Positions 1,629-23,639 of a stretch of DNA of 64,000 bases are shown here, one piece after another. This DNA comes from Pseudobdellovibrionaceae bacterium. GTDB lineage: Bacteria > Bdellovibrionota > Bdellovibrionia > Bdellovibrionales > UBA1609. The stretch covers positions 1-64,000 of the forward strand of contig JAMLIO010000001.1 in the NCBI GenBank assembly GCA_023954155.1, given 5' to 3'. Each line of letters starts with the position of its first letter. The stretch's first letter is position 1. Made by a program: the position numbers and the translations under genes. Below the pieces are notes generated by a model. The model saw only the letters and a list, made by a program, of their open reading frames with translations. It was not told where the DNA came from and ran no database searches.

Positions 1629-1632
1629 GGAT

Positions 1633-4599: not shown

Positions 4600-4730
4600 A
4601 TTCTTCTAAAACTTAGTGGTTCACACGACGTAGGGTTGTTCCAAAAACGAGTGAGCCACTTTCATCAGAGGATTTTAGTCTGTATTTTAAACCTTGTTGA
4701 CAAAGTACGCCCCATCTCATTACTGTTAGA

Positions 4731-4866: not shown

Positions 4867-4912
4867 GTACCACCACAGACCTCACGGCACATAAAACATG
4901 CAGTGAGAGCAC

Positions 4913-5476: not shown

Positions 5477-5491
5477 ACAAAGGAGTCAAAA

Positions 5492-6192: not shown

Positions 6193-6326
6193 CTATCACT
6201 GGCAACCGATAAACTTTCTATTGTAGAATCCGATTTAACGCAAAAACCCTACCACCTACGTCTAAATGTGGCACGAGGGTAACTACTATTACCTAAAGCA
6301 ACACACCACCCAATCACAGACCTCTT

Positions 6327-6689: not shown

Positions 6690-6758
6690 GTCCACTCCTT
6701 GGTTACTCCACTCATTTAGGTGTTTCATTATAAATGACTTTCGGTTAATCTGAAAGCT

Positions 6759-7328: not shown

Positions 7329-7349
7329 CCCACAATAGTTTTAAACATT

Positions 7350-7859
7350 ATGAACTTTAAAAACAAAAAAATCTTCAGTATTGACAACCTACTTTTTGTT
7401 ATCGCCCTTCTGGTGATCGTTTTTATCATCATTCCTCGTGCATGGAAGAATTTCTTACTGCAAGGTCAAGAGGCTGCAAAGATTGTAAATCTCGTAAGCA
7501 TTCACAACGAACCCTTAGAGATAACTCCTCCCTACGCACTCGTATTTTGGGCCACGTGGTGTAAACCCTGTGATATCGAACTGGGGCGCATTCAATCTAT
7601 GATTGAAGAAAATAAAATTCCACAAAATAAAGTTATCGCGGTGGCTGTGGATGACCACCTCAAACCCATTTTAGAGGCCCAAGCAAAAAGAAATTACAGT
7701 TTCCCCATAGTATGGGATGAAGATCAGAGCTTAAGCTCAATGTACCAAGTCCAAGGCACACCCACCATTTTAGTCATTCAAAAGGACAACACCATAAAGT
7801 GGGCTACAACGGGACTGAGTCCACTTTTAAAATTAAGACTGCAAAGTTATCTGAATTAA
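7350..7859 (+). CDS. TlpA/ResA-like membrane-anchored thioredoxin
   Basis: 169 residues. A single N-terminal transmembrane helix (LLFVIALLVIVFIIIP) anchors a periplasmic thioredoxin domain with active site WCKPC preceded by VFWAT, the strand PQNKVIAVAVDD and cis-proline segment VQGTPTILV. Such proteins reduce disulphides outside the inner membrane, for example in apocytochrome c maturation. It follows the haem lipoprotein gene by 21 bases and is probably in the same operon; a CxxCH protein next to a TlpA-type reductase is a sensible pairing. No clear ribosome binding site. Confidence 0.87.
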   Translation: MNFKNKKIFSIDNLLFVIALLVIVFIIIPRAWKNFLLQGQEAAKIVNLVSIHNEPLEITPPYALVFWATWCKPCDIELGRIQSMIEENKIPQNKVIAVAVDDHLKPILEAQAKRNYSFPIVWDEDQSLSSMYQVQGTPTILVIQKDNTIKWATTGLSPLLKLRLQSYLN

Positions 7860-7880
7860 AAACCTTACCCTTACAAAATA

Positions 7881-7908
7881 AAAAAAGGCGGCCCCTTTAA
7901 AGCCGCCA
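7881..7908 (-). terminator. Intrinsic terminator of the small minus-strand unit
   Basis: On the minus strand GGCGGC pairs with GCCGCC (positions 7887-7907) and is followed by six T residues and then ATTTT. The T run is on the minus side, so it ends a minus-strand transcript, not the TlpA-like gene. Confidence 0.85.
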
Positions 7909-7913
7909 GTGTG

Positions 7914-7967
7914 TTAATTGCACCCTTCCGTTCCTAGAAGGGTGCCACGTTTATCATATATTAACAT
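7914..7967 (-). CDS. 17-residue micro-ORF in a compact structured transcript
   Basis: The ORF encodes MLIYDKRGTLLGTEGCN. ATG 7967 is preceded by the near-perfect ribosome binding site AGGAGGTGG (7973-7981). A -10 box TATACT lies at 8011-8006, which places the start of transcription near 7999, exactly at a small hairpin (GACTT/AAGTC). The second half of the ORF forms a perfect 9-bp stem, GCACCCTTC with GAAGGGTGC (7945-7937 and 7928-7920), and the terminator follows within 10 bases of the stop. The whole unit is about 118 nt with no gene after it. It may be a peptide gene, a small RNA, or both; no family is known to me. Confidence 0.6.
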   Translation of the reverse strand: MLIYDKRGTLLGTEGCN

Positions 7968-8005
7968 GGGCACCACCTCCTCTCTGACTTGAGAAAGTCA
8001 AACAC

Positions 8006-8011
8006 AGTATA
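8006..8011 (-). promoter_or_regulatory. -10 box of the 118-nt minus-strand unit
   Basis: TATACT on the minus strand, six bases before a G at 7999 that would be a normal +1. No good -35 hexamer at 17 bp spacing was seen; upstream sequence is A/T-rich. Confidence 0.5.
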
Positions 8012-8309
8012 GGAGATATCGTTATTTTTTAAAAATCGTATTTTTTTGTTCTAGGATTAAGATTTTCTTATAGACAAATTCTGTCCCTATATCTCACAGA
8101 TAAAATACTAATATCCCTTATAGATTTAAATTTAACTCTGGTTCGTGAAATAGAGGCTGTAAATAATATATCAAAAAATAATCTAATTTTTAGATAGGTC
8201 CTTTTATTTCAGTCCGCAGCAGAGCATCACCAAGAACTCTCTATTCATCAAACCTTTTGTCTACTATAATTAAATCTATTGTTTAAAAAAAAAATTTAAA
8301 GGAGACGTT
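8012..8309. other. A+T-rich intergenic region
   Basis: No supported gene. It separates the minus-strand 118-nt unit from the GFA gene and should carry promoters for both directions. Very A+T rich with many A and T runs. Confidence 0.4.
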
Positions 8310-8726
8310 ATGACAAAAGAAGCTACAGGCACATGCCTATGTGGAAAGATCACTCTTAAAGCCAAACAAATGAACACCTCTCTGGGAGCGTGCCATTGTG
8401 CTACATGCAGAAAATGGACTGGTGGTCCTTTTTTAGCCGTGGACTGCGGTTCTAGCGTCAATGTGCAAGGTGAAGAGTTCTTAAGTGTTTACAATTCCTC
8501 AGACTGGGGTGAACGCGCTTTTTGCAAAAGCTGTGGAACAATTTTGTTTTTTAGATTGAAAGACCACAGCTTTTATTCTGTTTCTGCTGAACTGTTTAAC
8601 GAACCCGAACTCAAGTTTGAAACACAAATCTTTATTGATAGCAAACCTGACTATTATGAATTTGCAAACCCTACTAAGAATATGACAGGCGAAGAGGTGT
8701 TTGCGGCTTTTGCACCTAAAAGCTAA
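8310..8726 (+). CDS. GFA (CENP-V/GFA domain) family protein
   Basis: 138 residues, complete GFA domain. Zinc-ligand cysteines are visible: CLCG near residue 8, the ACHCATCRKWTG motif near 30-41 and CKSCGT near 75-80. The family includes bacterial glutathione-dependent formaldehyde-activating enzymes, but most members have no proven reaction. Cytoplasmic. A good AAGGAG site precedes the ATG. The next gene is convergent. Confidence 0.9.
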   Translation: MTKEATGTCLCGKITLKAKQMNTSLGACHCATCRKWTGGPFLAVDCGSSVNVQGEEFLSVYNSSDWGERAFCKSCGTILFFRLKDHSFYSVSAELFNEPELKFETQIFIDSKPDYYEFANPTKNMTGEEVFAAFAPKS

Positions 8727-8744
8727 CAGCCCTTTAATCTATCC

Positions 8745-9716
8745 CTACGCTTCAACCGTGTAGTGGCAAGACTCACATACAAACTTGTAACCTATATTTT
8801 GGTAAATCTTATTGGAGGTGGGGTTAGAAAGATCAGTGTAAAGACAGACTTGCTTTTTCCCTTCAGCAAGCACAAGTTCCGTCAACCGAGCTGTCACTAT
8901 AGAACCATACCCTTGGCCTCTGAAGGCCTTGGGAGTAAAAACCAAATTTACACTGCATGAGGTTTCAATGTCTCGGCCTTTAGATGCCATTGAAACAAGC
9001 TCTTGACCCTTTTCTAAAACATAAATCATGCCTTTAGAAATTCTAGCTTGAGCCACTTCATGTCCATCAATAGGCGGATCATGAGGAACTACCTCCTGAT
9101 GGAAGTCCTCAATCCATGTCGCAAGAATAGGGATGTCTTTTTCTGTAGCCACACGAAATTGAGTCTGCTGCCAAACACCTAGCGTATGCGGTGACGGTGA
9201 CGGTGACGGTGACGGTGACGGTGACGGTGACGGTGACGGTGACGGTGACGGTGACGGTGACGGTGACGGTGACGGTGACGGTGACGGTGACGGTGTGAAA
9301 CCTACAGGCACTTCGACTTTACTGCAAGAATAAATTCCCTGTTTCATACTGCACTTAAATTTTACGCCTTGGGTTTCAAACATAAGGCGATAAACATCTG
9401 CCGTTTTTCGCTCTGCTACAATTCCGCTGATGCGAATTCCGCTTTTGCAAAATTCATCAAATAAAGTCTGTGCTACCTTCAAATCAGATACGGACGAAGG
9501 GAGGAAATTATAATTTGTAAGATATTGGCTTACGACCAACGTTCCCACACACTCTTGTCCCACAATCATTGCACTTTGATATACACAGTTTGTAGGGTCA
9601 TCTTTAAAATGATATGAAAGCCCTACGCTCAGACTGTTCTCCGCTTCGCACCGCTTTAGAAAAGAACTGGCCTCGTCCCAAAACTCAAAAGCATTCTGAT
9701 AAACTTTGTGGTGCAT
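8745..9716 (-). CDS. Tandem GNAT-type acetyltransferase with (Ser-Pro)n linker
   Basis: 323 residues in three parts. Residues about 1-145 look like a degenerate acetyltransferase domain (FLKRCEAENSLSVGL is typical of the start of tandem GNAT proteins). A pure Ser-Pro repeat of about 17 units follows. Residues about 185-323 are a canonical GNAT domain with the acetyl-CoA loop FRGQGYGSIV and NKIYQNIGYKFV. It should transfer an acetyl group from acetyl-CoA to an unknown acceptor in the cytoplasm. The linker is encoded by a near-perfect 6-bp tandem repeat whose copy number can change without frameshift. It lies 5 bases downstream of the small secreted protein gene. Confidence 0.88.
   Translation of the reverse strand: MHHKVYQNAFEFWDEASSFLKRCEAENSLSVGLSYHFKDDPTNCVYQSAMIVGQECVGTLVVSQYLTNYNFLPSSVSDLKVAQTLFDEFCKSGIRISGIVAERKTADVYRLMFETQGVKFKCSMKQGIYSCSKVEVPVGFTPSPSPSPSPSPSPSPSPSPSPSPSPSPSPSPSPSPHTLGVWQQTQFRVATEKDIPILATWIEDFHQEVVPHDPPIDGHEVAQARISKGMIYVLEKGQELVSMASKGRDIETSCSVNLVFTPKAFRGQGYGSIVTARLTELVLAEGKKQVCLYTDLSNPTSNKIYQNIGYKFVCESCHYTVEA
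9190..9294. repeat. Hexanucleotide tandem repeat (GGTGAC)n
   Basis: About 17.5 uninterrupted copies of GGTGAC on the plus strand, coding for Ser-Pro dipeptides on the minus strand. No point substitution is visible in the array, which argues for recent expansion or ongoing slippage. Confidence 0.97.
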
Positions 9717-9721
9717 GGATT

Positions 9722-10012
9722 TTATTCTAATTCCAGATCAATATCGCAGCTATACTTTTCTAACTGCCTAGCGGTATCAAATAGATATTTACCCAATAAG
9801 TCTAGAAGTTCGACTTTACGATTTAAATCTTCCAACGACCAATGAGGACCGCTTTGAATTTCTTGAGCCAATTCTTGGTGTTTTTTAAAAGTCTCTACGT
9901 AATATGTAGACAAAACTTCACAGATCTCATCTGTCGTAGCGGCACTGTTTTTTGCCAAAGATGGCACAGAGGAAAATATTAAAAAGACACAAATCCAAAG
10001 TTTTTGTACCAT
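9722..10012 (-). CDS. Small secreted hypothetical protein
   Basis: 96 residues with a signal peptide (cleavage near SLA|KNSA). The mature part is acidic and mostly helical (EVLSTYYVETFKKHQELAQ...LLDLLGKYLF), with two cysteines. No family recognised. AGGAGTAGGAT upstream is a reasonable ribosome binding site. The acetyltransferase gene follows by 5 bases, so the two likely share a transcript. Confidence 0.7.
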   Translation of the reverse strand: MVQKLWICVFLIFSSVPSLAKNSAATTDEICEVLSTYYVETFKKHQELAQEIQSGPHWSLEDLNRKVELLDLLGKYLFDTARQLEKYSCDIDLELE

Positions 10013-10120
10013 CCAAGTATCCTACTCCTGATGAGATACACTATCAAAGCACGGTGTTTAAAGAGCGAAAGGAAAGGGTTTACCCCGCCAAACCAAGGCT
10101 ACACCTCATTCAGTGACGTT

Positions 10121-10156
10121 AAAAATAACCACCTTTCAAAAATCGTGGTTATTTTT
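10121..10156 (-). terminator. Terminator of the GDYXXLXY/DUF2157 operon
   Basis: AAAAATAACCAC pairs with GTGGTTATTTTT across a 12-base loop. With A run and T run on both sides it can act in either direction; it lies 30 bases after the stop of the minus-strand gene at 10187. Confidence 0.8.
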
Positions 10157-10186
10157 GATGTTTCCAAAAAAATACTGACTTTGCAC

Positions 10187-10723
10187 TTACTCTTGATCTT
10201 GAGGAGCGGACTCTTTATGGTCTCGTTTCTTGCGAACCCATTCTTTAAAAGGAAGGTCTTCAATAAGCAGGTCTGTCACCATGCCTGTTCCATTTTTTTG
10301 TATGGTGACATTGATCTTTCCCTGGCCATCGCGGACAGCCATATCTAGGTCTTTGGCTAAATTTTCTGGAATATAAAACCTTTCTATACCCGCTTCAAAT
10401 CTTCCATGTTTACAAATCCCTTTAAGATACAGATCACAGCCCTTGAGTTCCTTGGAGTTAGTTGTGAATTTTCTGTTTCCAGAAAGACATATAAATGCAC
10501 TCTCATTCGTATTCCACATACGACAAATATGAGCAGGATCAATTTCATAGTCCACACGATAAGTAATATAATGTCCCGATAGAAGATCCCGAGGATCATA
10601 TCCCAAAATTTTCAACGTGACCTTACCACCGCTTTCAATATTCAAATGATGTTTAATCACCATCCCTAATAAAACTAGAATTGGAAAAAGGATTCCCACA
10701 ATTAAATATTTTGAATTATTCAT
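10187..10723 (-). CDS. GDYXXLXY-domain protein
   Basis: 178 residues. One N-terminal membrane helix (YLIVGILFPILVLLGMVI) and an extracytoplasmic domain opening with GYDPRDLLSGHYITYRVDYEI, which fits the GDYXXLXY family signature. Three or four cysteines are present (IC, FIC, GC, GIC). The start overlaps the end of the DUF2157 gene by 8 bases; DUF2157/DUF4401 membrane proteins and GDYXXLXY proteins are usual operon partners. The biochemical role of the pair is unknown. Confidence 0.87.
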   Translation of the reverse strand: MNNSKYLIVGILFPILVLLGMVIKHHLNIESGGKVTLKILGYDPRDLLSGHYITYRVDYEIDPAHICRMWNTNESAFICLSGNRKFTTNSKELKGCDLYLKGICKHGRFEAGIERFYIPENLAKDLDMAVRDGQGKINVTIQKNGTGMVTDLLIEDLPFKEWVRKKRDHKESAPQDQE

Positions 10724-11879
10724 TTAAAAGCCATCCTTGAACGCGTGTTGTAAATTTTGAACTTTGTTTGGTCCATAAATAAGCCAGTAAGAGAACCACA
10801 ATCCCTGATGAGATCAATCCCAAGCCCGTAGTTGCCAAACCCCCTAATGCCTGAACGTAAAGGATAAAGATTCTGATGCCTATCAAGGCGACCACACAAT
10901 TAAACGCTCTGGTGTATTTCAAAGAAATAAAATATAAGCCAAGCAGAACAAGCATCAACAAGGTAAAAAGGGCCGTCACCATAGACACCCAAGTAGCTAC
11001 GGGCTCCAACGTGTACGCTGTGACATCTTTGGCAAGAACTACTGAATTAGACATATGAAACAAAAACATTAAAAGGTAAGTGAGTAAAAGAAAATATTTG
11101 AGTCGCTTTTGAATCAAGCCGTTATAAGTCGACTTATAAATGAGACCATACAACGCCAAAGCCGCGACTAATAATAGTGGCCAATGATCATTACTATGTA
11201 GACGGTAAGAGCCATAAGACTCAAGCGAAAACACACTAAGAAGAGATGAAAACATCAAACCCGCAGTATGAGCTTTTGCCCACACGGGAAGCTTGAGATA
11301 CTTTGCCCCTTCGACCAGTGAAACAAAAATTAAAGTGATGGTCACAAACGTAAATGTATAGTCTAACCCCCAACCTTTGGCGTTTGTGAAAAGATCTATA
11401 AGTGTAACCAAAAGTCCAAGGGACCAAACCACTGGCAAAAAAATGGTTCTTGCATATCTCACCGTCGGGATGGTGATCAGAGTCCATAAGCCTAGTCCTT
11501 GAAATATCTCTCCTTTTAAATGATAAATTTGAGACGTCAGACCAATGGTCGCTAAACAGTGAATGGCAAAGATAAACAAGGCCGATTCAAAATAAGCAGG
11601 TTTATCTTTGGTGTAGAAGAAGTACACGCCATACCCAAAAGCACTTAAAAGCAAGAAGTTAAATACCAACTTTACTGTATCAGGGATCTCTGCCCAATTG
11701 GCCGCAATAACAGAAATGATCCCAAGTCCGATACAAAGAGCACCTAAGACAAGCACAGAAGTGAGAACCCACGACGCTTTCGGTTTCCCGTCTTCATAGT
11801 TCTTAATACCTAAGAGCTGATCCTCACTGATCAGACCCTTTTCCTTCCACTCTTGAAGTTGTTTGAATAGTTTGGACAT
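10716..11879 (-). CDS. DUF2157 multi-pass membrane protein
   Basis: 387 residues. A short cytoplasmic N-terminus (QLQEWKEKGLISEDQ) is followed by about ten hydrophobic segments. The N-terminal helix plus VLTSVLVLGALCIGLGIISVIAANW is characteristic of DUF2157. Inner-membrane protein of unknown activity; family members always seem to sit beside GDYXXLXY proteins, as here. AAGGAA ribosome binding site seven bases upstream. Confidence 0.87.
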   Translation of the reverse strand: MSKLFKQLQEWKEKGLISEDQLLGIKNYEDGKPKASWVLTSVLVLGALCIGLGIISVIAANWAEIPDTVKLVFNFLLLSAFGYGVYFFYTKDKPAYFESALFIFAIHCLATIGLTSQIYHLKGEIFQGLGLWTLITIPTVRYARTIFLPVVWSLGLLVTLIDLFTNAKGWGLDYTFTFVTITLIFVSLVEGAKYLKLPVWAKAHTAGLMFSSLLSVFSLESYGSYRLHSNDHWPLLLVAALALYGLIYKSTYNGLIQKRLKYFLLLTYLLMFLFHMSNSVVLAKDVTAYTLEPVATWVSMVTALFTLLMLVLLGLYFISLKYTRAFNCVVALIGIRIFILYVQALGGLATTGLGLISSGIVVLLLAYLWTKQSSKFTTRVQGWLLNE

Positions 11880-12009
11880 GGATGTTCCTTAATTTGCTAA
11901 TCTATTGGATCTCTTTACTATACAAAAAGCATATCCAAGTAAATCTACAGATTCCACTATTCCATCATCTTAACTCATCGCAACCACGAAAAACGGACCG
12001 TTAGTTTTC

Positions 12010-12357
12010 TTACAACAGTTCTTTGATCTTTTCGAGGGGGCGGCCGATGATGGCTTTGTTGTGGTGGATGACTATGGGACGCTCTAGAAGGTTTGGATGC
12101 TTGGCTAAGTTTTTGGCGATAACTGAGGCGTTTGAAAGATCAAACTTGAGTTCTTTGTATTTGTCCTCTTTTAGACGAACTAGGTCTTTGGGTTCGTCTT
12201 GCTGAAGTTGATCCATTAGGGTCAGCAATTCTTTTTCGGTTAAAGGCGTCTTTAAATACTCTACGACTTCAAACTTCACTTGAGCCTCTTCTAGCATTTT
12301 TAAAGCTTCACGGCTTTTACTACATTTAGGATTATGTAAAATTTTATAATTGCTCAT
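12010..12357 (-). CDS. ArsC/Spx-family arsenate reductase-like protein
   Basis: 115 residues from ATG 12357. The thioredoxin-like fold begins YKILHNPKCSKSREAL with the single catalytic cysteine of glutaredoxin-dependent arsenate reductases. LVRLKE and the C-terminal NLLERPIVI...AIIGRP segment supply the conserved arginines. Likely reduces arsenate using glutathione/glutaredoxin, though YfgD-type homologues may have other roles. The frame is open 10 codons further upstream, but GAGGAG lies six bases before ATG 12357, which decides the start. No other ars genes are nearby. Confidence 0.88.
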   Translation of the reverse strand: MSNYKILHNPKCSKSREALKMLEEAQVKFEVVEYLKTPLTEKELLTLMDQLQQDEPKDLVRLKEDKYKELKFDLSNASVIAKNLAKHPNLLERPIVIHHNKAIIGRPLEKIKELL

Positions 12358-12461
12358 GGTTTTCTCCTCTTTAGCTCCTGCTGTCACAAAACTTCCCGTA
12401 TCTTAAAAATTTAGGTTAGACTTTAAGAGCAGTCTACTCTAAGATTTAGCATTGAGTAGTT

Positions 12462-13892
12462 ATGAAGTATCTATTTTTTGCCCTTTTTATTTTTTCTATA
12501 ATACCAAATGGATCCTACGCCTTTAGTCCAGCTCCAGCCGACTTTTACTACGCCAAGAATGGCAAAGTCTTTTTTGAAAATACAGAAACCACTGCTCACC
12601 TTGCAAGCTTTAGTGTTTTGCATCCCAGCGAATACTTTGCAAAAGATCAAGAGCATATTTATTTCAAAGGAAAAAGCATTCCCGATGTTTCTGCTGAAAA
12701 CTTTAAGGCCACCTATGATCTAGTCGGAACTGATGGAAAAACTGTCATCCTGTTAGATCACACCAACCCATTGGGATATTCCGTTCAAACATTTCAAGAC
12801 TTTAAAATACTCTCAGATCATTACTACGTCGGTGATGGTCAAATGTATTTTTTAAAGGTCAGAGAGCCTTATAATGGTTCTTTAAAGCGGGCCGAGCTTG
12901 TAGCCGTACCAAAAGTCACTCCTGAAAATTTTCTTCTGGTTTATAAAAAAACAGGGCAAGACATTTCTGATGTCTTTAATGTGATTGCCACTACAGATTC
13001 ACACTTTATGGTCTGTGAACACTCTCATCCATTAAAAAAATCTCTGGGCCCCGTTCAAATTCTAAGCTCAGAAAAAGAAATTGGAACTTATTTTAGTGCC
13101 AACAAGCAGGTGTATTATGTGCATGGTTGCAAACTGACTTTGGTCAAAGATGCCACGCCTCAAAACTTTAAGATTCTTACTCCACTGATCGCCACCGATG
13201 GGAAACGTTTTCTTAAATACGGAGAACCCCTTGAGTTCACTTACAAAGGACAAGCTATCAAACCCAATGTGAAAGAGTTTCTCGTGATTGAAAAAGTATG
13301 GGGAAAATATCAAGATTCACTGTACTATATTTTTGAGGGACAGTTTCAAGAGTATAAGAATGTAGATTTTAAGACTTTTGAAATTTTAAGAAACTACTGC
13401 AAAGAGGGCATAGGCTGTATCCACTTGGCACAAGATTCACGACACTATTTTTATAGAAGCGGCCAAAGCCTGATCGACTCTGATGATGCCAATATCACCT
13501 ATGTCATGCAAAAGTACCCCAATCATAGAAAAGCGGTGTACTTATATGGACTGCTCTTAGATAAGGTGGACCCTGATACTTATCGCTCTTTAGATTCTTC
13601 ACGTTATGGAGTCGACGCAAACTCTTTGTATTACAATAATGTTCCCGTACAAGGAGCCGACATTAAAAGTCTTACGGTTTTAGATCATGGTTATGCTAAA
13701 GATCAATTCAGCGTGTACTTACATGGACGTAAGATCATCAGTGCTGACGCTTTTTCTTTCAAAAGACGTTTTGGAAAGTTCAGTGACCGCTCCACTTCAA
13801 CCAAACAAAAGATCTGGGAAGACAAACGGTACTACTTTAATCAAGATGGCAAGATTGTGAGCAAGAAAACCCCACCTTCAGAACAGTCTTAA
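12462..13892 (+). CDS. DKNYY-family exported protein
   Basis: 476 residues with a signal peptide (cleavage near SYA|FSP). The mature protein is a string of DKNYY-like units, each a short beta hairpin of the type AKNGKVFFE, AKDQEHIYFKGK, ATDGKRFLKYGE, QDSRHYFYRSGQ, DANSLYYNNVPV, KDQFSVYLHGRK and EDKRYYFNQDGK. Such repeats are thought to form an extended beta-sheet scaffold on the cell surface or in the periplasm; no enzyme function is known. Its stop codon shares bases with the stop of the convergent arfB gene. Confidence 0.88.
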   Translation: MKYLFFALFIFSIIPNGSYAFSPAPADFYYAKNGKVFFENTETTAHLASFSVLHPSEYFAKDQEHIYFKGKSIPDVSAENFKATYDLVGTDGKTVILLDHTNPLGYSVQTFQDFKILSDHYYVGDGQMYFLKVREPYNGSLKRAELVAVPKVTPENFLLVYKKTGQDISDVFNVIATTDSHFMVCEHSHPLKKSLGPVQILSSEKEIGTYFSANKQVYYVHGCKLTLVKDATPQNFKILTPLIATDGKRFLKYGEPLEFTYKGQAIKPNVKEFLVIEKVWGKYQDSLYYIFEGQFQEYKNVDFKTFEILRNYCKEGIGCIHLAQDSRHYFYRSGQSLIDSDDANITYVMQKYPNHRKAVYLYGLLLDKVDPDTYRSLDSSRYGVDANSLYYNNVPVQGADIKSLTVLDHGYAKDQFSVYLHGRKIISADAFSFKRRFGKFSDRSTSTKQKIWEDKRYYFNQDGKIVSKKTPPSEQS

Positions 13893-14293
13893 AGTTTGAC
13901 CTTCTGCCTTGCCTTCTTAATTTCACCTCTTTGTTTTTTACTCTCTACCCGTTTGATCTGACTCGATTTAGTCGGTTTTGTTTTTTTGCGGGCCTTGGGT
14001 TTATGCAAAGCTTTTGCAATCAAAAATTGCAACTTCTCTAAACAGCGTGATTTGTTTCTCTCAAGGTCTCGAAATTCATCGCTCCTTAAGTACAACTCTC
14101 CTTTTTGATTGATATAAGAGTCTAGCTTTTCAAGAATTCTTATCTTTTGTTCTTCAGTGAAAGACTCGGAGCTTTCCACATGCCATGTCAGTTGCGCCGC
14201 AGAGCTGACCTTGTTCACATTTTGACCACCAGGGCCTCGACTTCTGGTTGCGACAAATTTGATCTCTTTAAGTTGTGGCAGTTGTGACACCAT
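13889..14293 (-). CDS. arfB: Peptidyl-tRNA hydrolase ArfB (YaeJ)
   Basis: 134 residues. The class I release-factor-like domain carries the catalytic GGQ at residues 22-24 (SRGPGGQNVNKVSSA). A basic, lysine-rich C-terminal tail (KARKKTKPTKSSQIKRVESK) is the part that enters the empty mRNA channel. It hydrolyses peptidyl-tRNA on ribosomes stalled without a stop codon, a backup to tmRNA, which is also encoded in this window. Length is normal for the family. AGAGGGA serves as ribosome binding site. Confidence 0.93.
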   Translation of the reverse strand: MVSQLPQLKEIKFVATRSRGPGGQNVNKVSSAAQLTWHVESSESFTEEQKIRILEKLDSYINQKGELYLRSDEFRDLERNKSRCLEKLQFLIAKALHKPKARKKTKPTKSSQIKRVESKKQRGEIKKARQKVKL

Positions 14294-14483
14294 CTCTGTT
14301 CCCTCTAAGTCTACATTCTATCTCTTTTTTGTATCTGAACACATACGCACCCGAACTAGACTCTACTAAAGCTCAGTCATCGTCACGTTGACCAAACAAA
14401 AGTCGAGGGTTTACAATACGTTAAAGACTTCCGATAAAGGGTATTGAATGTAAACCCACACTTATCGAGTCAGGGAGGGACAT

Positions 14484-14957
14484 ATGAAATTTTTGATTCC
14501 TGTTTTGATGCTTGCGACATTATTCTCTCAACACAGTTTCGCCCAAGTGGTTGTAGAAGATGGTTTTAAATTTGGTACGCCCAGAGAAGGTGAAGAATTC
14601 GATGCTCCCGCCCAAAAGGCCACAGAATCTATTGACTGGCCTATTGATGACAATGAACTGCGAGTGACTGAAGTTAAATTTACAAAGAAAGCTAAAACCA
14701 AATGGCACCGCAATAAAGGACCTAAATACTTAATCACAACTGACGGTACTGGAGAGATTGAGTGGTACAACTCAGGTGGACAATTGCTATCTAAAAAAAT
14801 TGGCAAATCAGGACGTGTTTACATCCCCGCCCACGTCTGTCATCGTCATGGATCAGATGGAAAGGTCCTCTCACAAATCGTAGTCACTACTGCCGAAACC
14901 AAATGGGATGAGTGCCATGAAGAATTCATTCCCCAAGGCGGCGGAGCGGGTAAATAA
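14484..14957 (+). CDS. Secreted cupin-like protein
   Basis: 157 residues with a signal peptide (cleavage near SFA|QVV). The mature domain shows the cupin pattern: motif 1 TKWHRNKGPKYLITTDGTG and motif 2 GRVYIPAHVCHRHG, which supply possible metal-binding histidines and a cysteine. Periplasmic or secreted; substrate unknown. Two more cysteines (ECHEE, VCHR) could bond. A strong GGGAGG site precedes the start. Apparently monocistronic. Confidence 0.78.
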   Translation: MKFLIPVLMLATLFSQHSFAQVVVEDGFKFGTPREGEEFDAPAQKATESIDWPIDDNELRVTEVKFTKKAKTKWHRNKGPKYLITTDGTGEIEWYNSGGQLLSKKIGKSGRVYIPAHVCHRHGSDGKVLSQIVVTTAETKWDECHEEFIPQGGGAGK

Positions 14958-15137: not shown

Positions 15138-17114
15138 ATGGTAAGTAAGCGTATTCTAAATATATATAAATTATTTGTCCTTATCTGGGCTACACAGTTT
15201 GTAGCTATAGGGCCAAGCTACGCTTCTCGACAATGCTTGAAATACCTTGTTGATAATAAGAGCGGCATTAACATCACAGGTAACATCTCTATCTCTAGAA
15301 CAGAGTCTCGATCTGAAGAGGCCTCTTTTACGGGTTTCGTAGATAAGTTTCATATTAAACCTGATCTCAGCCAGAGACTTCTAAGTCAATTGAGCCTTTT
15401 AAACGAACGTGGGTCTCGCGATAATTTAACAGAGTTCCGTGTAGAAGAAAAAGCCATCATTACAAATAAGAATGCAGCTACTTTTTTAAATGAAACAGGT
15501 AAAGACTTATCACTGACTTGGCAACTGCGTGATGTACCTCCTCCAGGAAAACAGTTTTTAACAGTGACTGCGTATGGTAAGACCTTTCAATTTGCCAACG
15601 AAGGTTTACAACCTATTGTAGGTAAACTTCGTATCCGCAAATACTACTCACATGATCCAAATGGACAAAATCTACAGTCCGTATTTCCCAATATTTCTGC
15701 TCTAGAACTTAAGCTATCCAACATTGGTCGATTTGATAATACAGGAAAAGCTATTGTTGTTGAAAACGGCGTGTTTAAACCACGGATTTATATTTCAGAC
15801 TCCCAACTTGTTCAATTACTACAACTTGCCAGAGGTAAATTTGAAAGCCCCGAAGCCTTGCAAAAGCTGATCTCAGACATTGGGGAACTTAAAAATCCAG
15901 CCACACAACAAAACTTTAATAAACCTGAGCATGTCAAATATATGCTTGAAGCCTTAGAACTTTTGCAATCACAAGCTCCCAGATTATTAGAGACAGATAA
16001 AGTCATTGCTTACAACAGAAAGTCCTATTCGGCACTGGATAAAGAAGGCAACGAATACCAATTCACTTTAGATGAAAAGGTTCGCGTCTTTGCAGGCAAT
16101 CCTAAAATTTTATGTTGTAATTTAGAGAAGTATCTCAGCGAAAAGCCTTTGGAAATCTTACCTAGAGACTATGTGTTTGCAGAACTTAAATCTCCGATTT
16201 CTGAGAAACTCCAATATAGCAAAACTTACACGGCACTTTACTCCACACTTATTCGCGAACACTTTGGCACATTAAACCAAGGAAAATACTCTTTGAGTGC
16301 CAAAAAAATCTCTACTATTTTTGAAGAGAACTCAAACAGCATCATCGAAGAACGTGGTGCGCTTCTATGGTTGATTCGTGGAGCCAGTTTTTTCCCTGAA
16401 CCTCAGAACAGAAAAGGCATTGTGGAGCACGGGCAAGTTAAGATCGCCATCCCCTTTGAATATCAAACTCAAACTTATCGTATGGTGGTGGAATATAAGA
16501 CTGTAGTCACTACTAATGCCAAACGCGAAGCCTATGCTGACAAAATTCAAATCGTCGACCACGCAGGTCGCAAAGTCGATCTTAAGGACAGTGATATTAA
16601 AGATGTCTTACGATCCTTCAGAGACTTTTCAGATAAAGAGCTTGCTGGCCTTATGATTGAGGGTGTTCCTATCACTATCAAACCTAAAATCACAGCCGAT
16701 GAACTTAAGGCATATATTGACTTCTTTAATGACTTTTTCGTGAACTTTTCAAAGTCACCTAAAAACCCACGTGATCCAGAAATACTTCAACGCATTCACA
16801 CATCTAAACAGCTCAGCTGGTATATCAAAAAAATGAAGCTCCAAAATTTTCTAGCCTACACTTGGTCAAGAATACACAGAATCACTATGGGAGCTGCTAT
16901 TGGTGCCGCTGTGATTTGGTACTCTCCTTTTGCTGTCGAGAAGGCACCACCGCCACCACAACAGCAACCCATTGTTGAACAGTATATCATTGAGGTCAAA
17001 GAAGCCAATGGGGTGATCCGTTACTACGACACTCAAAAACAAGCGTTTGTCGAAAACGGCTCTTGGCCTTCACACTTCCAAGCCGTTCCTCTATCTGAAG
17101 TTCTTTTAGATTAA
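15138..17114 (+). CDS. Large exported hypothetical protein
   Basis: 658 residues, not recognised. A signal peptide or N-terminal anchor (IYKLFVLIWATQFVAIG, possible cleavage SYA|SRQ) leads into a long soluble region of mixed alpha/beta character. A hydrophobic segment near residue 590 (MGAAIGAAVIWYSPFAV) is followed by a proline/glutamine-rich stretch (APPPPQQQPIVEQ) and a small C-terminal part. It is therefore probably envelope-associated with a C-terminal membrane helix. Paired cysteines are few (LCCNL). The start at 15138 lacks a good ribosome binding site. A terminator follows at 17173. Confidence 0.75.
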   Translation: MVSKRILNIYKLFVLIWATQFVAIGPSYASRQCLKYLVDNKSGINITGNISISRTESRSEEASFTGFVDKFHIKPDLSQRLLSQLSLLNERGSRDNLTEFRVEEKAIITNKNAATFLNETGKDLSLTWQLRDVPPPGKQFLTVTAYGKTFQFANEGLQPIVGKLRIRKYYSHDPNGQNLQSVFPNISALELKLSNIGRFDNTGKAIVVENGVFKPRIYISDSQLVQLLQLARGKFESPEALQKLISDIGELKNPATQQNFNKPEHVKYMLEALELLQSQAPRLLETDKVIAYNRKSYSALDKEGNEYQFTLDEKVRVFAGNPKILCCNLEKYLSEKPLEILPRDYVFAELKSPISEKLQYSKTYTALYSTLIREHFGTLNQGKYSLSAKKISTIFEENSNSIIEERGALLWLIRGASFFPEPQNRKGIVEHGQVKIAIPFEYQTQTYRMVVEYKTVVTTNAKREAYADKIQIVDHAGRKVDLKDSDIKDVLRSFRDFSDKELAGLMIEGVPITIKPKITADELKAYIDFFNDFFVNFSKSPKNPRDPEILQRIHTSKQLSWYIKKMKLQNFLAYTWSRIHRITMGAAIGAAVIWYSPFAVEKAPPPPQQQPIVEQYIIEVKEANGVIRYYDTQKQAFVENGSWPSHFQAVPLSEVLLD

Positions 17115-17172: not shown

Positions 17173-17205
17173 AAAGGCACCCTTTTAGGAGTGCCTTTTG
17201 TTTTT
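17173..17205 (+). terminator. Intrinsic terminator after the 658-aa gene
   Basis: AAAGGCAC pairs with GTGCCTTT, followed by TTGTTTTT. Confidence 0.85.
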
Positions 17206-17254: not shown

Positions 17255-18820
17255 TTATTTAATGATGTAAGGACGAGCTTGTTTAAATAAAACCACGTAC
17301 TCATCATTATCATTCTTATCTACTTTAAACTCGATATCTAAAGCAAATAAGTCATTATCTTTACCCAACAAAGGTTTAAAGTAGGTTTCTGCTTTTAAGC
17401 TTAAGTTGTAGATGTCCATGATGTGAGCGTCTGTAAGAACAGGAATATCGCTTTCTTGTGAAAGGATGGTGATTGTATCTACATCTACTGTAGAGTTCCC
17501 CATTCTCACGATTTCAGGTTGACCTGCTTTATTTGGAACTACGGCTCTTCTTTCTGGAAGCACACCTTCTGCTGGGTTTTCAACACTGTGTTCGTCGCCT
17601 CTTTGGGCTTCGATATACACACCTGCTAAGTCCCCTTTTTCATCAGCAATGTTTTTTGTAACCACAACACCACTTGCTAACTCATCATTAAAAGAAGGGT
17701 TGACCTGAATGCCCATATACACTTCGGAATGATCAATACCATAAAGCTGTCTTTCATCATAAGCTCTTCTGTTCCAGATAGAAGCCCAGACGGTTTTGAT
17801 CGCTTCTTCAAGTTCAACTAACTTATCTTCTTTGCTTCTTTCTTTGCCTTTTTTATTGTAAGGCTTGTAACTTTTTGAAGTGTAAAGACCTGCACCACTG
17901 AAATTTGGAAGATCTTCGGCGTTGGTAGAGCTTCTAAACTTTAAGTTTCTTAAATTCCCTTTTGTATTACGAAAGGTTTCAGCTTTAGCCAAAATCAATT
18001 CTAAAGATTTAACATCCATTGGAAACTCAGGTGACATGATCATAGCTTGTAGCTCTTCTAATTTTTCATTTCTATAAAGAGCTTCTTCTGCCGTGTTTAA
18101 TCTCTTGTCTGTTAAGATCGCACTGATAGCATCTTTGATTTTAGGATTTTGATCTAAAAATTGATTGTAGTAATAAAAAGGAATAGCAAAACCAGGACGA
18201 ACCACATCGCTACCCATAGCTTTTAAAAGTTCAGCATAGTTGGCGGCTTTTGATCCTACTTTATCGTGATCTTTCCAGCCAATGTCAGCATGATCAACAA
18301 TCTTGTTAAATGACAAGTCTGCCACGATCTCTACTTTTTCTAAAGCGGCCACTTCAGCAGAACATCTTGCATCGCTAGGAGTAGTTTTCTCAAGAACAAG
18401 CTCACGGCTCTCTCTTAACACTTTAATAAAAACAAAATCTCCGTTTTGAATAGTGGGGAAACACACTTCTAAAGCGGCTTCAAGATCACCACCACTGTTT
18501 GCAACACAGTCTGCGCCAGAAATATCGGCATTAGGAATGCCCCAATCCTTGGCTTTAATAGCAATATGAGAACTTCTAGGCTGTTTCACCAATGTGATCA
18601 CACCAGAAACTGTAGAAAGTTCTGCTGGGAAGAAGGTGAACACAGGCACAGAGCTAAGGTTAAGAGCCTTAAACTCATTAGAAGATTCTGAAGTGACAAG
18701 AGTCAAATAACCACAACGCTCGCCTTCATTAAAGATGTCGCGCTTTCCACCGCTTATGACTTCTGCATAGGCAGAGCCCGTAAAGCTTAAAACTAATAGT
18801 GCTACAAACAATTTTTTCAT
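17255..18820 (-). CDS. Exported phosphohistidine/ATP-grasp dikinase (PPDK_N, GWD-like order)
   Basis: 521 residues with a signal peptide (cleavage near AYA|EVI). Residues about 70-100 hold a PEP-utiliser-type swivelling motif, QPRSSHIAIKAKDWGIPNA, with candidate phosphohistidine His85. From residue 188 on is a PEP/pyruvate-binding ATP-grasp domain: VGSKAANYAEL (188-198), FRSSTNAEDLPNFSGAGLYT (from 295), VWASIWNRRAY, ASGVVVTKN and the final DIEFKV...KQARPYIIK. No C-terminal PEP-binding barrel is present, and the His domain precedes the ATP-grasp. That is the order in alpha-glucan water dikinases, not PEP synthase. It may phosphorylate a glycan or protein outside the cytoplasm; acceptor unknown. 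Last gene of a three-gene operon, AAGGAG site upstream. Confidence 0.85.
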   Translation of the reverse strand: MKKLFVALLVLSFTGSAYAEVISGGKRDIFNEGERCGYLTLVTSESSNEFKALNLSSVPVFTFFPAELSTVSGVITLVKQPRSSHIAIKAKDWGIPNADISGADCVANSGGDLEAALEVCFPTIQNGDFVFIKVLRESRELVLEKTTPSDARCSAEVAALEKVEIVADLSFNKIVDHADIGWKDHDKVGSKAANYAELLKAMGSDVVRPGFAIPFYYYNQFLDQNPKIKDAISAILTDKRLNTAEEALYRNEKLEELQAMIMSPEFPMDVKSLELILAKAETFRNTKGNLRNLKFRSSTNAEDLPNFSGAGLYTSKSYKPYNKKGKERSKEDKLVELEEAIKTVWASIWNRRAYDERQLYGIDHSEVYMGIQVNPSFNDELASGVVVTKNIADEKGDLAGVYIEAQRGDEHSVENPAEGVLPERRAVVPNKAGQPEIVRMGNSTVDVDTITILSQESDIPVLTDAHIMDIYNLSLKAETYFKPLLGKDNDLFALDIEFKVDKNDNDEYVVLFKQARPYIIK

Positions 18821-18848
18821 TTTTTTTCTCTCCTTAGAAAATATAATT

Positions 18849-20249
18849 TTAATCCATTTTATCTAAAATATGATTGAACAAACTGATGGCTGAAGATCTG
18901 AGTGTGTCGTCTAACATGCCATCCATGTGTGAATCGACTTGTTTCCATTTCTCTACGTAAGGGTCATAGGCTGCTTTAATGTTGCCCATGATTTCAGATA
19001 ACATGTCGTCATATAAAACTTCATAGTCATCAAAGTCAGAAGGAACCTCTGAAGCGGATACAATGGATGAGCTTGCTAACATTCCTTCCATATAAAGAAT
19101 ATTTTGAATAAGAACCGTAAGGTCACCAATGTTTGTGCTGTTAATCGCGTTTTGATCAATATAGGCTCTTACTTTTTGAAATAAGAATGCAGAGGCGGTC
19201 AGTGTATATGCGTAGCCTAAATACTTCTCACCCAATTTCACAGCATCCGTAGGTAAAGCATTTCTTACAGTAAGTAGTTCTTGTGAATACGCCACCAAAT
19301 CCTCTAAAGCAGGGCTCTTCTTATCAATACGTGCTAGGGCCACAGGTGTGATCTTGGCTTTTTTAGCCACATAGTTGATGTCCGCAACTCCACGCGAGAA
19401 GTAACTTAGAATCAAATTTTTGATCTCTACAAGTTCTGGATTGGATTTTTGTTTTAAGTAGTTATCAATCAAACCTACGATTTCAGGAGTCAATTGATTA
19501 TGAATACTGTCTCTGATGAATTTGATTTGTTTGACTTGTTGTGAACTCACGGTGTGACTCTTTGAACCACCAGGACCATAAGTCTCATATAGAGAAGTGG
19601 CCTTGTCGCGAATTCTTGTGAAGTTGTTAGACTCTACTAATGAGCTGGAGTTTACCAGTCTTGCTAAAAGCAAAAAATCTATTTCTGATGGTGCTACTGA
19701 AATAAAAAAGTCTACAAACTCTTGGGCATATTGAATTTCAAATTCTGCACCCGCAACACCTCTTAAAGCAAAACTTCTTGCAAGTTTTGAAGATGGGTTT
19801 TTAGCAATATAAAGCTTTTCTAGGTTCCAGTTCTGAACCATTTGTTTGGCTCTGGCAAAAACCTGTGGATTCCCTTGGGCGACAGAAACCAACGCCTCTA
19901 CCCCTTGATCTGAACTTAAGTTGGCAGCGTTCGCATCACCAAGCAAGGCTTCTGCTCTTAACTCATAGTAATTTGTTGCAAACAGGTTTCCAGTATAAAT
20001 CCCATGCTCACGAAGTAAGTCTTGCGCCACTTTATTTCTGAAAGCCGATTGAAAAATAAATCCACCACCTGAACTGGCCCATTGGTTATATGAGATTCTT
20101 TTTGATCTCATTTGCATCATGTTTGGGCCAAAAGGACCTTTAGATTCTTTTTCAAGAGCTTGAAAGTAAGAGGCGATATCGGCGGCGTACGTGGGAACAC
20201 TGAACGCCGACAAACATAAGACCATAAATAAACTATTTAATGCTCTCAT
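18849..20249 (-). CDS. Exported helical protein, partner of the dikinase
   Basis: 466 residues with a signal peptide (cleavage near TYA|ADI). The rest appears almost entirely alpha-helical. A segment GPGGSKSHTVSSQQVKQIK followed by RDSIHNQLTPEIVGLIDNYL stands out as likely conserved and polar. I do not recognise a named domain. The ATG follows the stop of the L,D-transpeptidase by one base, so translation is coupled, and the dikinase starts 28 bases after its end. It may be the helical region that in larger dikinases is fused to the catalytic parts; that is inference. Confidence 0.75.
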   Translation of the reverse strand: MRALNSLFMVLCLSAFSVPTYAADIASYFQALEKESKGPFGPNMMQMRSKRISYNQWASSGGGFIFQSAFRNKVAQDLLREHGIYTGNLFATNYYELRAEALLGDANAANLSSDQGVEALVSVAQGNPQVFARAKQMVQNWNLEKLYIAKNPSSKLARSFALRGVAGAEFEIQYAQEFVDFFISVAPSEIDFLLLARLVNSSSLVESNNFTRIRDKATSLYETYGPGGSKSHTVSSQQVKQIKFIRDSIHNQLTPEIVGLIDNYLKQKSNPELVEIKNLILSYFSRGVADINYVAKKAKITPVALARIDKKSPALEDLVAYSQELLTVRNALPTDAVKLGEKYLGYAYTLTASAFLFQKVRAYIDQNAINSTNIGDLTVLIQNILYMEGMLASSSIVSASEVPSDFDDYEVLYDDMLSEIMGNIKAAYDPYVEKWKQVDSHMDGMLDDTLRSSAISLFNHILDKMD

Positions 20250-20250
20250 C

Positions 20251-22062
20251 TTATCTGATCTCCGCTAAAATTTGTTGCTTTTCGCTTTCAAAAGCTTTTC
20301 CACCGCAGGCTTCTTGATTTGAAAATGGAGCACAACCTTTTGTTCTGCCAATCAGTCTTACAAATCTTTTGCTTAAGGATCTAGAGCCTCCACCATTTAA
20401 GCCAGAGTTGAACCCTTTGATTTTGTTAGATGTAAACATCTGAATCTTATCTTTTTCGTAGTTCTGTTCGTACAGTGGAAAACTGCCTTCAACAGTGTAG
20501 CTTGTTTTCACGCGTCCACGAGATCTTTCTGTAAAATAATCCTCTACAGTTTGAATTGAAATGGAAGGATTGATGATACGCAAACCACTCTTATCAAAAA
20601 CATTTTTACCAAATAGTTTGGAGTAATAATCAATAAGATCCACACTGGCCTCTAAACCTTGTCCTTCTCTTTTGTCTAATCCTGAAGAGCCTTTAAGAGA
20701 GTAAGTGATGTAATAAGTTACACCCACAGCCACTGGGTTTCCTTCACCCGTAAGATCATAAATGTCGAAATCCGCAGAACTGTTACCAAACCAAAAGACT
20801 TTTTTCATCTTATCGTTTTCAACAGGCATACTTTGACGAAGTTCCCAAACATGTCCAATAGGAAGTCTTAAGCAACCATGGGATACTCCACCTCTTTTAA
20901 CAGACCAGAAAGCAGCATGTGAACCAGGTATATTTAAAGCTTTCTTTTGTGATGAGTTAGGCCATAAACGCACTGCTGGGTTATGGAAACCGTTACCAAC
21001 TCCTTCGTAATCCATTTTAGGTGCAAAACCATAATAGGGTTCGCTACGAATGTTATCTACTGCACTTCTAGAACCACCATCTGTGAAGTTGGCCAAACCT
21101 GCCGTCGCAAATTGATTGATTTTATGCTTGTACTTATCAGAAGTTGTCCCCTCAAGAGAACCTGTAGGGTAAATGGTAGTCACCTCAACATACGATAATG
21201 AACAGTCATTTAAACTGTTACAACTCTTAGCATCGACAAGTTGACCATTGTCAGCAAGAGTACGGATGTCATATTTACCATCTGTTACAGATTCAAAAAG
21301 TGCGTAGGTGGCTTTTACAAAACCTTCATCGCTAAGCACAGTAGCCTGATCAATAAGATTAGAAAGTTGAGACAATTCGGCATTGTTTAATTTTCTAGTA
21401 AGATTGATTCTTCCCATTAACATCTTATTCACTAAAACCATTGCTTCTTGAGTGCTAGATTTAGCAATACCAGAGTTCACAGTAGAAACGTTTTCGTCTC
21501 TCCATTTTAAGAACTCACGAGCAAGATCGATACGTACATCAAACGTACGTGCGGAGTTAAGTTGCTTTAAAGCTTTTAAACTCTCAGCATATAACTGTTC
21601 TTTTGTGATTTTTCTGGCATCAAAGTCTTCGACTGCATTTAAAACACCAGAGTTTAACACGGCATTAAAATTTTCTAAGTGAGGAAAGACCACCGCTTTA
21701 CTGGGGCTAACATCAATATACTTGTCAGCGACAAGTTTATTGTAAAAGTCTTTACGAGTTTTAAGATCATAAAGATAATCATAAACGGTCTGCTCATCTA
21801 AAATCAGACTCACACGTGTTTGGTTTCCTCTTGAAACACGAATGTGTATGCGGTTGGGCTCTTGCACTCTGGGGATAAAACCCGTGTAAAAACTAGGATA
21901 ATACCCATTCAGGGCTCCGTTTCCACCCGTCCAACTCACACCCCACACGGGTAACTGCTCGTTGTATTCTTCTACACTCATAGCCTGAGCCACATTGACT
22001 CCGCCTACGAGTATTGCGCTCGCACACATAAACACATACACCTTCTTGGCATAGCTCTTCAT
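20251..22062 (-). CDS. L,D-transpeptidase (YkuD domain) protein
   Basis: 603 residues with a signal peptide (cleavage near AQA|MSV). The catalytic YkuD motif is at residues 382-400: SHAAFWSVKRGGVSHGCLRL, with nucleophile Cys397 and His395. The family cuts and rejoins peptidoglycan stem peptides, forming 3-3 cross-links or attaching proteins. A long N-terminal helical region (about 90-260) and a C-terminal region with four further cysteines (CNSLNDC, GCAPFSNQEACGG) are unusual additions. First gene of the operon with the helical protein and dikinase; AGGAG site nine bases upstream. In a predator it may act on self or prey wall. Confidence 0.88.
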   Translation of the reverse strand: MKSYAKKVYVFMCASAILVGGVNVAQAMSVEEYNEQLPVWGVSWTGGNGALNGYYPSFYTGFIPRVQEPNRIHIRVSRGNQTRVSLILDEQTVYDYLYDLKTRKDFYNKLVADKYIDVSPSKAVVFPHLENFNAVLNSGVLNAVEDFDARKITKEQLYAESLKALKQLNSARTFDVRIDLAREFLKWRDENVSTVNSGIAKSSTQEAMVLVNKMLMGRINLTRKLNNAELSQLSNLIDQATVLSDEGFVKATYALFESVTDGKYDIRTLADNGQLVDAKSCNSLNDCSLSYVEVTTIYPTGSLEGTTSDKYKHKINQFATAGLANFTDGGSRSAVDNIRSEPYYGFAPKMDYEGVGNGFHNPAVRLWPNSSQKKALNIPGSHAAFWSVKRGGVSHGCLRLPIGHVWELRQSMPVENDKMKKVFWFGNSSADFDIYDLTGEGNPVAVGVTYYITYSLKGSSGLDKREGQGLEASVDLIDYYSKLFGKNVFDKSGLRIINPSISIQTVEDYFTERSRGRVKTSYTVEGSFPLYEQNYEKDKIQMFTSNKIKGFNSGLNGGGSRSLSKRFVRLIGRTKGCAPFSNQEACGGKAFESEKQQILAEIR

Positions 22063-22553: not shown

Positions 22554-23639
22554 ATGTTGCGCTCAAAGCTTTTCTCTTCACTATGTATGGCTCTATTTTT
22601 AACTACACCTTTAATATTTGTAGGCTGCGGTGACAATCTCACACCTCAAGGCAGTCAAATAGAACAAGAGACTGGTTCAGACATCCCTGAAGATTCTGAT
22701 GGCGACAACACTGGCTCTGATCGTGAAGAGCCCACAACCCCGACTGTAACTCTGGGCAGCCCAGAATCTGATCCCAACTTTGGTACTTTACCGAATGGCA
22801 CCAAATTGACCTCCATCAAAGTCAGTGGCGTCGCTTTAAAGTTAATCACAGGTACAGGAAACACACTCACAAGTGCAAAATATCAAGAGTATCAGAAACT
22901 CAGATCCGCTTCAGAAACACAAGCTAACCATTTAGTGCAATGGACTTTTGCGAATTTAGAGACAGGTCAAATTTTAGCTCGCAGCGCTTCAGCTCATAAA
23001 AAATACTTTGGGGCTTCAAGTTCTAAGATTTTTGTGGGTGCCGCGCAACTGGATAAACATAAAGGTTCCATTACTGCAAAGCAGTTACAACAAATGGCGG
23101 ACATGATTGTGGTGTCTTCTAATACGGCTTGGACTAATATGCAAAAAGACATCGGTGATGGAGATGCCAATAAAGGTCGTGAGCGCATTCATCAGTTCAC
23201 CCAAAGAATGGGTTACACATTGACCCGTGGCTTTCAAGGTTATTGGGGAAGTGTACATGGCAATGAGCTTGTGCCAGACGAAACAGCCGAAATGCTTTTT
23301 GATACCTACCACAATCAATACCCAGGGGCCGAGACTTTATGGAAGATGATGTACACGTGCCGTACTGGTGCAAATCGTGGACTTAAATATATTCCAAAAA
23401 ATATTTATGTAGGCGGAAAAACAGGAACTTACAGTGGACCGACCGAAAACCCTGAAACAGGTCGCAGTCACAACGTAAACATGAAAAATCATGTTCTGAC
23501 CTTTAATATTCACGGCACCCAATATGGTCTTGTGATCTTTGCTAATAATGGATCTGATGAGTCTGTCGCCCTTTTAGCTGGCGGTTTAGTACAAGACACT
23601 TTGCTAAGTTCAAAAACCATGGCCTCACACATGTGGTGA
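22554..23639 (+). CDS. Serine beta-lactamase/transpeptidase-fold lipoprotein
   Basis: 361 residues. Lipobox FVGC, then a Ser/Asp/Glu/Thr-rich linker (about 25-75) and a penicillin-interacting domain. The three active-site motifs are in order: SSSK (SxxK, near residue 155), SSNTAW (SxN) and GGKTGT (KTG). The class A beta-lactamase-like fold suggests a beta-lactamase, D,D-peptidase or endopeptidase anchored in the envelope. The long linker and lipid anchor would let it reach the wall. It is divergent from the L,D-transpeptidase operon, so this is a wall-enzyme neighbourhood. AGGGGA ribosome binding site. Confidence 0.85.
   Translation: MLRSKLFSSLCMALFLTTPLIFVGCGDNLTPQGSQIEQETGSDIPEDSDGDNTGSDREEPTTPTVTLGSPESDPNFGTLPNGTKLTSIKVSGVALKLITGTGNTLTSAKYQEYQKLRSASETQANHLVQWTFANLETGQILARSASAHKKYFGASSSKIFVGAAQLDKHKGSITAKQLQQMADMIVVSSNTAWTNMQKDIGDGDANKGRERIHQFTQRMGYTLTRGFQGYWGSVHGNELVPDETAEMLFDTYHNQYPGAETLWKMMYTCRTGANRGLKYIPKNIYVGGKTGTYSGPTENPETGRSHNVNMKNHVLTFNIHGTQYGLVIFANNGSDESVALLAGGLVQDTLLSSKTMASHMW

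Follow-up and report, generated by a model that had tools for sequence, protein, structure and literature searches.

To our knowledge, the dikinases of the PPDK/PEPS/RPH/GWD superfamily that have been characterized so far are located inside cells, in the cytoplasm, or in organelles or plastids. One of them, rifampin phosphotransferase (RPH), loses its activity upon mutation of Lys22, Arg117, or Thr136 (PMC4844700), and another, HpeHI, is a two-component dikinase that acts on small aromatics (PMC12167813). Here, we describe a locus on contig JAMLIO010000001.1 of a Pseudobdellovibrionaceae bacterium (assembly GCA_023954155.1), of which positions 1 to 64,000 of the forward strand were analyzed (64,000 nucleotides, referred to as the window). 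Between positions 17255 and 22062, three minus-strand genes encode, in the order of transcription, an L,D-transpeptidase-like protein (LDT-like), a helical protein (HEL), and a predicted dikinase (DIK). DIK and HEL together probably form an exported, ATP-dependent, two-part dikinase with the domain order of alpha-glucan water dikinases (GWD), which would act on an acceptor outside the cytoplasm.

DIK (positions 17255 to 18820, minus strand; 521 amino acids) consists of a predicted signal peptide, a phosphohistidine domain (residues approximately 27 to 160), and an ATP-grasp domain (residues approximately 174 to 517), of which residues 186 to 517 match the Pfam family PPDK_N with an E-value of 2.4e-29 (103.1 bits; cut-off, 27). 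The SSHIAIKAKDWGIPNA motif, which contains the predicted phosphohistidine His85 (codon at positions 18566 to 18568, minus strand), is located on the N-terminal side of the ATP-grasp domain. In the family alignment of 42 sequences from seven phyla, His85 is invariant in all 42 relatives, as are Lys191, Arg296, Glu302, Asp303, Ser315, Glu497, Gln514, and Arg516. By our reading of the motif spacing, Lys191 corresponds to Lys22 of RPH, Arg296 to Arg117, and Ser315 to Thr136. Neither Pfam nor NCBIfam detected a phosphoenolpyruvate (PEP)/pyruvate-binding barrel, and the signal, phosphohistidine, and ATP-grasp parts account for the 521 residues. The original prediction for this locus, which was made from the letters alone, had described a phosphohistidine motif and a complete PPDK_N-type ATP-grasp arranged as in alpha-glucan water dikinases, with no PEP-binding barrel; all of these statements hold, and the conservation of His85 and the ATP-grasp residues across the relatives is in agreement with them.

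The family profile of DIK matches the ATP-grasp domains of PEP synthase and RPH in the PDB, and a second match of the same profile, which is below the threshold, places the His motif on the mobile domain of PEP synthase. For a HEL-DIK fusion that occurs naturally in another genome (L103; 948 amino acids), the AlphaFold model has a mean pLDDT of 91.4 and a pTM of 0.66. As aligned with VIA-align, its ATP-grasp domain superimposes on those of RPH (PDB accession number 5hv1; Z-score = 30.2, RMSD = 2.3, 289 aligned residues) and PEP synthase (2ols; Z-score = 28.9). Residues 485 to 597 of the model match the swivel domain of RPH (5fbu, residues 755 to 867; Z-score = 10.9, RMSD = 2.7, 101 aligned residues), and a swiveling domain around the phosphohistidine is thus present in the model of this relative. 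By sequence and by model, DIK is an intact dikinase, and we infer from these features that it is enzymatically active.

HEL (positions 18849 to 20249, minus strand; 466 amino acids) appears to be an exported, all-helical protein, and it matched no Pfam or NCBIfam family. Twenty positions are invariant in 17 HEL sequences, which are 21 to 30% identical to the window protein; they include four arginines (Arg71, Arg163, Arg214, and Arg246), two glutamates (Glu144 and Glu171), one histidine (His250), and two asparagines (Asn88 and Asn251). The HEL part of the L103 model is also helical. In about ten other genomes, HEL and DIK are encoded by a single open reading frame (ORF) with the HEL portion at the N terminus. 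These fusions occur in G071 (L030/L103), G126 (L085/L115), and two further Bdellovibrionota genomes (L100 and L101), and in metagenome-assembled genomes (MAGs) of Gammaproteobacteria (L093/L216, L096, and L215) and Lysobacterales (L102 and L104). A divergent form of the fusion is found in G122, where the very divergent HEL-DIK-like gene (L088, positions 2 to 7878) is preceded by two large genes whose products look exported and by a fragment that may resemble the C terminus of RodA/FtsW.

In the phylogenetic tree of DIK, the HEL-linked proteins form one clade (support, 97/100). A clade supported at 99/100 holds all of the split forms together with the gammaproteobacterial fusions, and most of the fused lineages branch outside it and deeper, which favors an ancestral HEL-DIK fusion that was later split. 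Judging from the sequences, HEL and DIK were most likely once one polypeptide that was divided in the Bdellovibrio-type lineages, and a re-fusion in Gammaproteobacteria is possible. The earlier suggestion that the helical partner is a split-off subunit is therefore well supported by the fusions, by the DIK tree, and by the co-occurrence of the genes described below.

The gap between the LDT-like gene and HEL is 1 base and that between HEL and DIK is 28 bases, and each of the three ATG codons is preceded by a purine-rich Shine-Dalgarno-like site. An intrinsic-terminator-like hairpin, with a stem of 10 pairs followed by a T run, is located downstream of DIK (positions 17173 to 17198, minus strand). 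The order LDT-like/HEL/DIK is kept in eight other split-type loci, with gaps of -113 to +23 bases (the value of -113 is a product of the longest-ORF start call in G022), and this arrangement is therefore no accident of the window genome, in which no second DIK was found. The N termini of all three proteins are basic and then hydrophobic, like signal peptides, and the hydrophobic stretch of DIK ends with AYA at residue 19. The three coupled genes with signal-peptide-like N termini, including the sizes of both gaps, are as originally claimed.

With a crude, home-made, and permissive heuristic for signals and lipoboxes, 65 of 75 members of the DIK family passed the export test, compared with 344 of 753 neighboring ORFs (Fisher p = 3e-12), and 30 of the 65 carry a lipobox; on this heuristic, the family appears to be exported. 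If the N-terminal hydrophobic stretches were not real signal peptides, the proteins would be cytoplasmic, in keeping with the cytoplasmic or organellar location generally known for characterized dikinases and with two relatives (L036 and L038) that have no obvious signal. We consider this very improbable, given that the orthologues of LDT-like, HEL, and DIK alike have signal-like N termini, that lipoboxes occur in 30 relatives, that the LDT-like protein has a conserved cysteine pair (Cys577 and Cys586), and that the four cysteines of the window DIK are all confined to the His-domain half.

Scanning of genome contigs with an alignment as the query gave at least 556 loci for relatives of DIK; the same scan with a single sequence as the query gave no matches. 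The best 80 of them are from Bdellovibrionota, Pseudomonadota, Myxococcota, Bacteroidota, Fibrobacterota, Planctomycetota, and Verrucomicrobiota, and the relatives outside the HEL branch mostly have other N-terminal extensions of approximately 170 to 750 residues. This large, mostly exported family had been missed in the original prediction. The whole family appears to be uncharacterized, and no paper on an exported dikinase was found in open-access full text. Within Bdellovibrionota, the HEL module itself is patchy, being present in 16 of 369 genomes; it also occurs in MAGs of Gammaproteobacteria, where 4 carriers were found among the 210 genomes of a single order. These distributions bear on the earlier proposal that the dikinase is a predation effector, acting on the prey envelope or inside the prey with prey ATP. 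In its favor, the window and the Bdellovibrio-type genomes are of one order, and all products of the operon appear to be exported. Against it, members of the exported family are frequent in Myxococcota, Bacteroidota, Fibrobacter, Planctomycetes, and Verrucomicrobia, lineages that are not known to be intraperiplasmic predators; MAGs of Gammaproteobacteria carry the HEL module as well; and in the best-sampled genus, g38, just one genome carries the module. The distribution thus argues against this proposal, to which we give a rather small chance.

The LDT-like protein (positions 20251 to 22062, minus strand; 603 amino acids) appears to be exported and is a candidate divergent L,D-transpeptidase of the YkuD type, with the motif H360...S394-H-G-C397-x-R. 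His360 is invariant in all 14 rows that cover the position, and Ser394, Gly396, Cys397, and Arg399 are invariant in 15 of 15, while His395 is replaced in 4 of 15. The Pfam YkuD match is below significance (E-value = 0.11; 13.5 bits compared with a cut-off of 23.4), none of six orthologues gave an E-value under 0.1, and hhalign aligned the LDT-like family with YkuD over 10 columns only. The structure model, which was built from an alignment of nine sequences, is unreliable in the motif-bearing half (pLDDT < 50), and a fold search with it gave no match. Of the original assignment as an L,D-transpeptidase, the Cys/His motif therefore stands, whereas neither the profile nor the structure prediction confirms it; on the motif, the protein is a probable, although unproven, transpeptidase. 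Additional LDT-like copies with SRGC in place of SHGC are located elsewhere (L083, positions 5542 to 7311, in G117; L090, positions 259 to 2082, in G093), each near a gene whose product begins with a signal and a APRGHGVGNGGD stretch.

Of 141 genomes of the order, 10 carry the LDT-like family; HEL is found in these 10 and, as a weak match, in one more, and a close DIK is found in these 10 and in one genome of 61% completeness, in which the contig breaks off within DIK. The ten genomes that have all three belong to three families and nine genera, and this co-occurrence is therefore not easy to attribute to shared descent alone. A fourth member of the module, overlooked in the original prediction, is a PBP/beta-lactamase-like lipoprotein (positions 22554 to 23639, plus strand; 361 amino acids) with a lipobox and the SxxK, SxN, and KTG motifs of serine beta-lactamases and PBPs, here SSSK (155), SSN (188), and KTG (289), which are conserved in five aligned orthologues; its Pfam Beta-lactamase2 match (E-value = 2.7e-4, 20.8 bits) is just short of the cut-off of 22. 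Of 12 split-type loci, 11 have this gene next to the module. In most relatives it follows DIK, whereas in the window and in L214 it is divergent, and it was not found beside the fused HEL-DIK loci that were examined. On the other side of the operon, convergent with DIK, a gene at positions 15138 to 17114 of the window encodes a protein of 658 amino acids with no family match, a signal-like N-terminal stretch, and a probable C-terminal membrane segment.

In the mechanism that we propose, His85 in the mobile domain would receive the β-phosphate of ATP from the ATP-grasp domain of DIK, yielding AMP and Pi, and the mobile domain would then swing to HEL, which would hold the acceptor and at which the phosphate would be transferred. 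That HEL, with its 20 invariant positions, would provide the acceptor site is suggested by two analogous cases, namely RPH, which has an acceptor module of its own, and the two-component HpeHI. The HEL-DIK pair would act outside the cytoplasm beside the LDT-like and PBP-like enzymes, and with these neighbors an envelope glycan or another extracytoplasmic polymer would be the likeliest acceptor. The argument for peptidoglycan in particular is weak, being built on a transpeptidase call at the motif level and on the newly found PBP-like neighbor. The objection that the periplasm has little ATP is softer than was stated. A review (PMC7432876) reports approximately 24 µM periplasmic ATP for E. coli, a value that is expressed per 10^10 bacteria and comes from an experiment in which ATP was added, and the Km of RPH, a dikinase of the same fold, for ATP is 8.4 µM (PMC4844700); an exported dikinase therefore need not starve, although neither figure is from the organism of the window.

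Several observations weigh against an exported two-part dikinase as proposed here. With the profile of HEL, no relative could be detected in the PDB; the matches were weak and to unrelated coiled or helical proteins, and no RPH chain was found by sequence. The confident model was obtained for L103, which is approximately 37% identical to the window protein over DIK, rather than for the window protein itself, and at its pTM the position of HEL relative to DIK is uncertain. The export test has a background of 46%. Two Lysobacterales MAGs (G146 and G147) have the fused HEL-DIK with no LDT homologue detected, and the link to wall enzymes is therefore not obligatory.

Relatives of DIK are often located beside a cassette of DUF4956 (PF16316) and a VTC-type polyphosphate polymerase, in at least three different arrangements (L163, positions 10051 to 14915; L155; L160; L144, positions 4775 to 6228; L091, positions 4774 to 9200; L026; L084; and L028). 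In L155, L160, and L163, a CotH-type kinase gene is also nearby, with a Pfam match in L163 and homologues in the other two. In Fibrobacter, a PAP2-type phosphatase gene is directly downstream of the dikinase (L126, positions 9514 to 10305; L131, positions 9285 to 10076; L138, positions 2190 to 2951), with a Pfam match in L126 and homologues in L131 and L138. Long-form dikinases of Fibrobacter and Myxococcota are adjoined by 27 similarity-linked ORFs, mostly of 220 to 350 amino acids; the one member tested (L107, positions 6728 to 7396) has no Pfam match. A polyphosphate donor system based on VTC/DUF4956 was considered and rejected, as the window genome has neither family and most g38 genomes carry the cassette with no close DIK. 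CotH, polyphosphate polymerase, and DUF4956 genes are known accessories of the Pel exopolysaccharide (PMC7112168); a link to Pel was also rejected, as inspection of the ORF lists and N-terminal sequences alone, with no profile search run, revealed no Pel-like gene next to the cassette of G093 or G098.

Two other activities can be considered from these neighborhoods. The adjoining PAP2 phosphatase in Fibrobacter and the VTC/DUF4956 cassettes beside several relatives could indicate an enzyme that is chiefly a phosphohydrolase or phosphate scavenger, drawing on extracellular nucleotides or phosphopolymers with no modification of a polymer. The strictly conserved phosphohistidine domain and the conserved helical partner instead suggest transfer to an acceptor, and both VTC and DUF4956 are missing from the window genome, which makes scavenging quite improbable. 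The acceptor could also be a protein rather than a glycan, such as a surface protein or one of the two partners, LDT-like or PBP-like, in which case the CotH-type kinase genes near the relatives in L155, L160, and L163 and the apparent joint export of the partner proteins would be understandable. However, DIK is closest in domain order to the glucan dikinases, no CotH association is seen in the window, and we know of no protein-directed enzyme in which a His domain is followed by an ATP-grasp; an extracytoplasmic protein kinase is accordingly unlikely in our view.

A conserved, catalytically intact dikinase family that appears to be exported would mean that ATP-driven phosphorylation takes place outside the cytoplasm in many bacteria. 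We propose tentatively, as a possibility of wider scope, that a large, unrecognized family of exported or surface-lipoprotein dikinases in at least seven phyla phosphorylates extracytoplasmic polymers at the expense of ATP and that its Bdellovibrio-type branch has divided the enzyme into two halves, one catalytic and one helical and acceptor-binding, which work alongside wall-type enzymes. In that case, there would have to be a route by which ATP, or a donor equivalent to it, reaches the extracytoplasmic space. Export would raise the questions of which phosphate donor is used and of which polymer of the envelope or matrix receives the phosphate, and the split of HEL and DIK together with the natural fusions offers an easy handle for biochemistry.

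The LDT-like protein shares with the YkuD L,D-transpeptidases the invariant His, Ser, and Cys, as H...S-x-G-C-x-R, but differs from them in the lack of a significant profile match, in an insertion of approximately 20 residues between the His and the Cys, in the replacement of the His of SHGC by Ser or Arg in some members, and in approximately 330 extra residues at the N terminus. DIK shares the PPDK_N ATP-grasp with PEP synthase and pyruvate phosphate dikinase, and its His motif aligns weakly with the mobile domain of PEP synthase, whereas it has no PEP/pyruvate barrel, has the reverse domain order, and appears to be exported. Similar to GWD/PWD, DIK has a phosphohistidine domain followed by a C-terminal ATP-grasp, a His motif of the SHV(N/S) type, and no PEP barrel. 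Weak matches to the Pfam family GWD1_pHisD were observed in 8 of 42 relatives at E-values up to 1 (best, 0.0015); those of L107 and L161 have bit scores under the cut-off of 27 and contain the conserved His inside the matched range, and the window DIK has no match. Unlike GWD/PWD, DIK is bacterial and predicted to be exported and has a helical protein as its partner, and Pfam detected no starch- or glucan-binding module such as CBM45 in DIK or HEL. DIK thus appears to be arranged like GWD and to work like a dikinase, but it cannot be filed as a GWD. With RPH, it shares the ATP-grasp fold, the swivel His fold, and a separate, here putative, acceptor-binding module. RPH is ordered as the ATP-grasp, the rifampin-binding acceptor domain, and the C-terminal His domain and inactivates an antibiotic, whereas the order here is HEL, the His domain, and the ATP-grasp, and HEL has no sequence match to the rifampin-binding domain. 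HpeHI is likewise a dikinase of the same superfamily divided over two polypeptides (PMC12167813); in HpeHI, however, the ATP-grasp is alone and the swivel and acceptor domains are joined, whereas in the locus described here the swivel and ATP-grasp domains are joined and the partner is alone.

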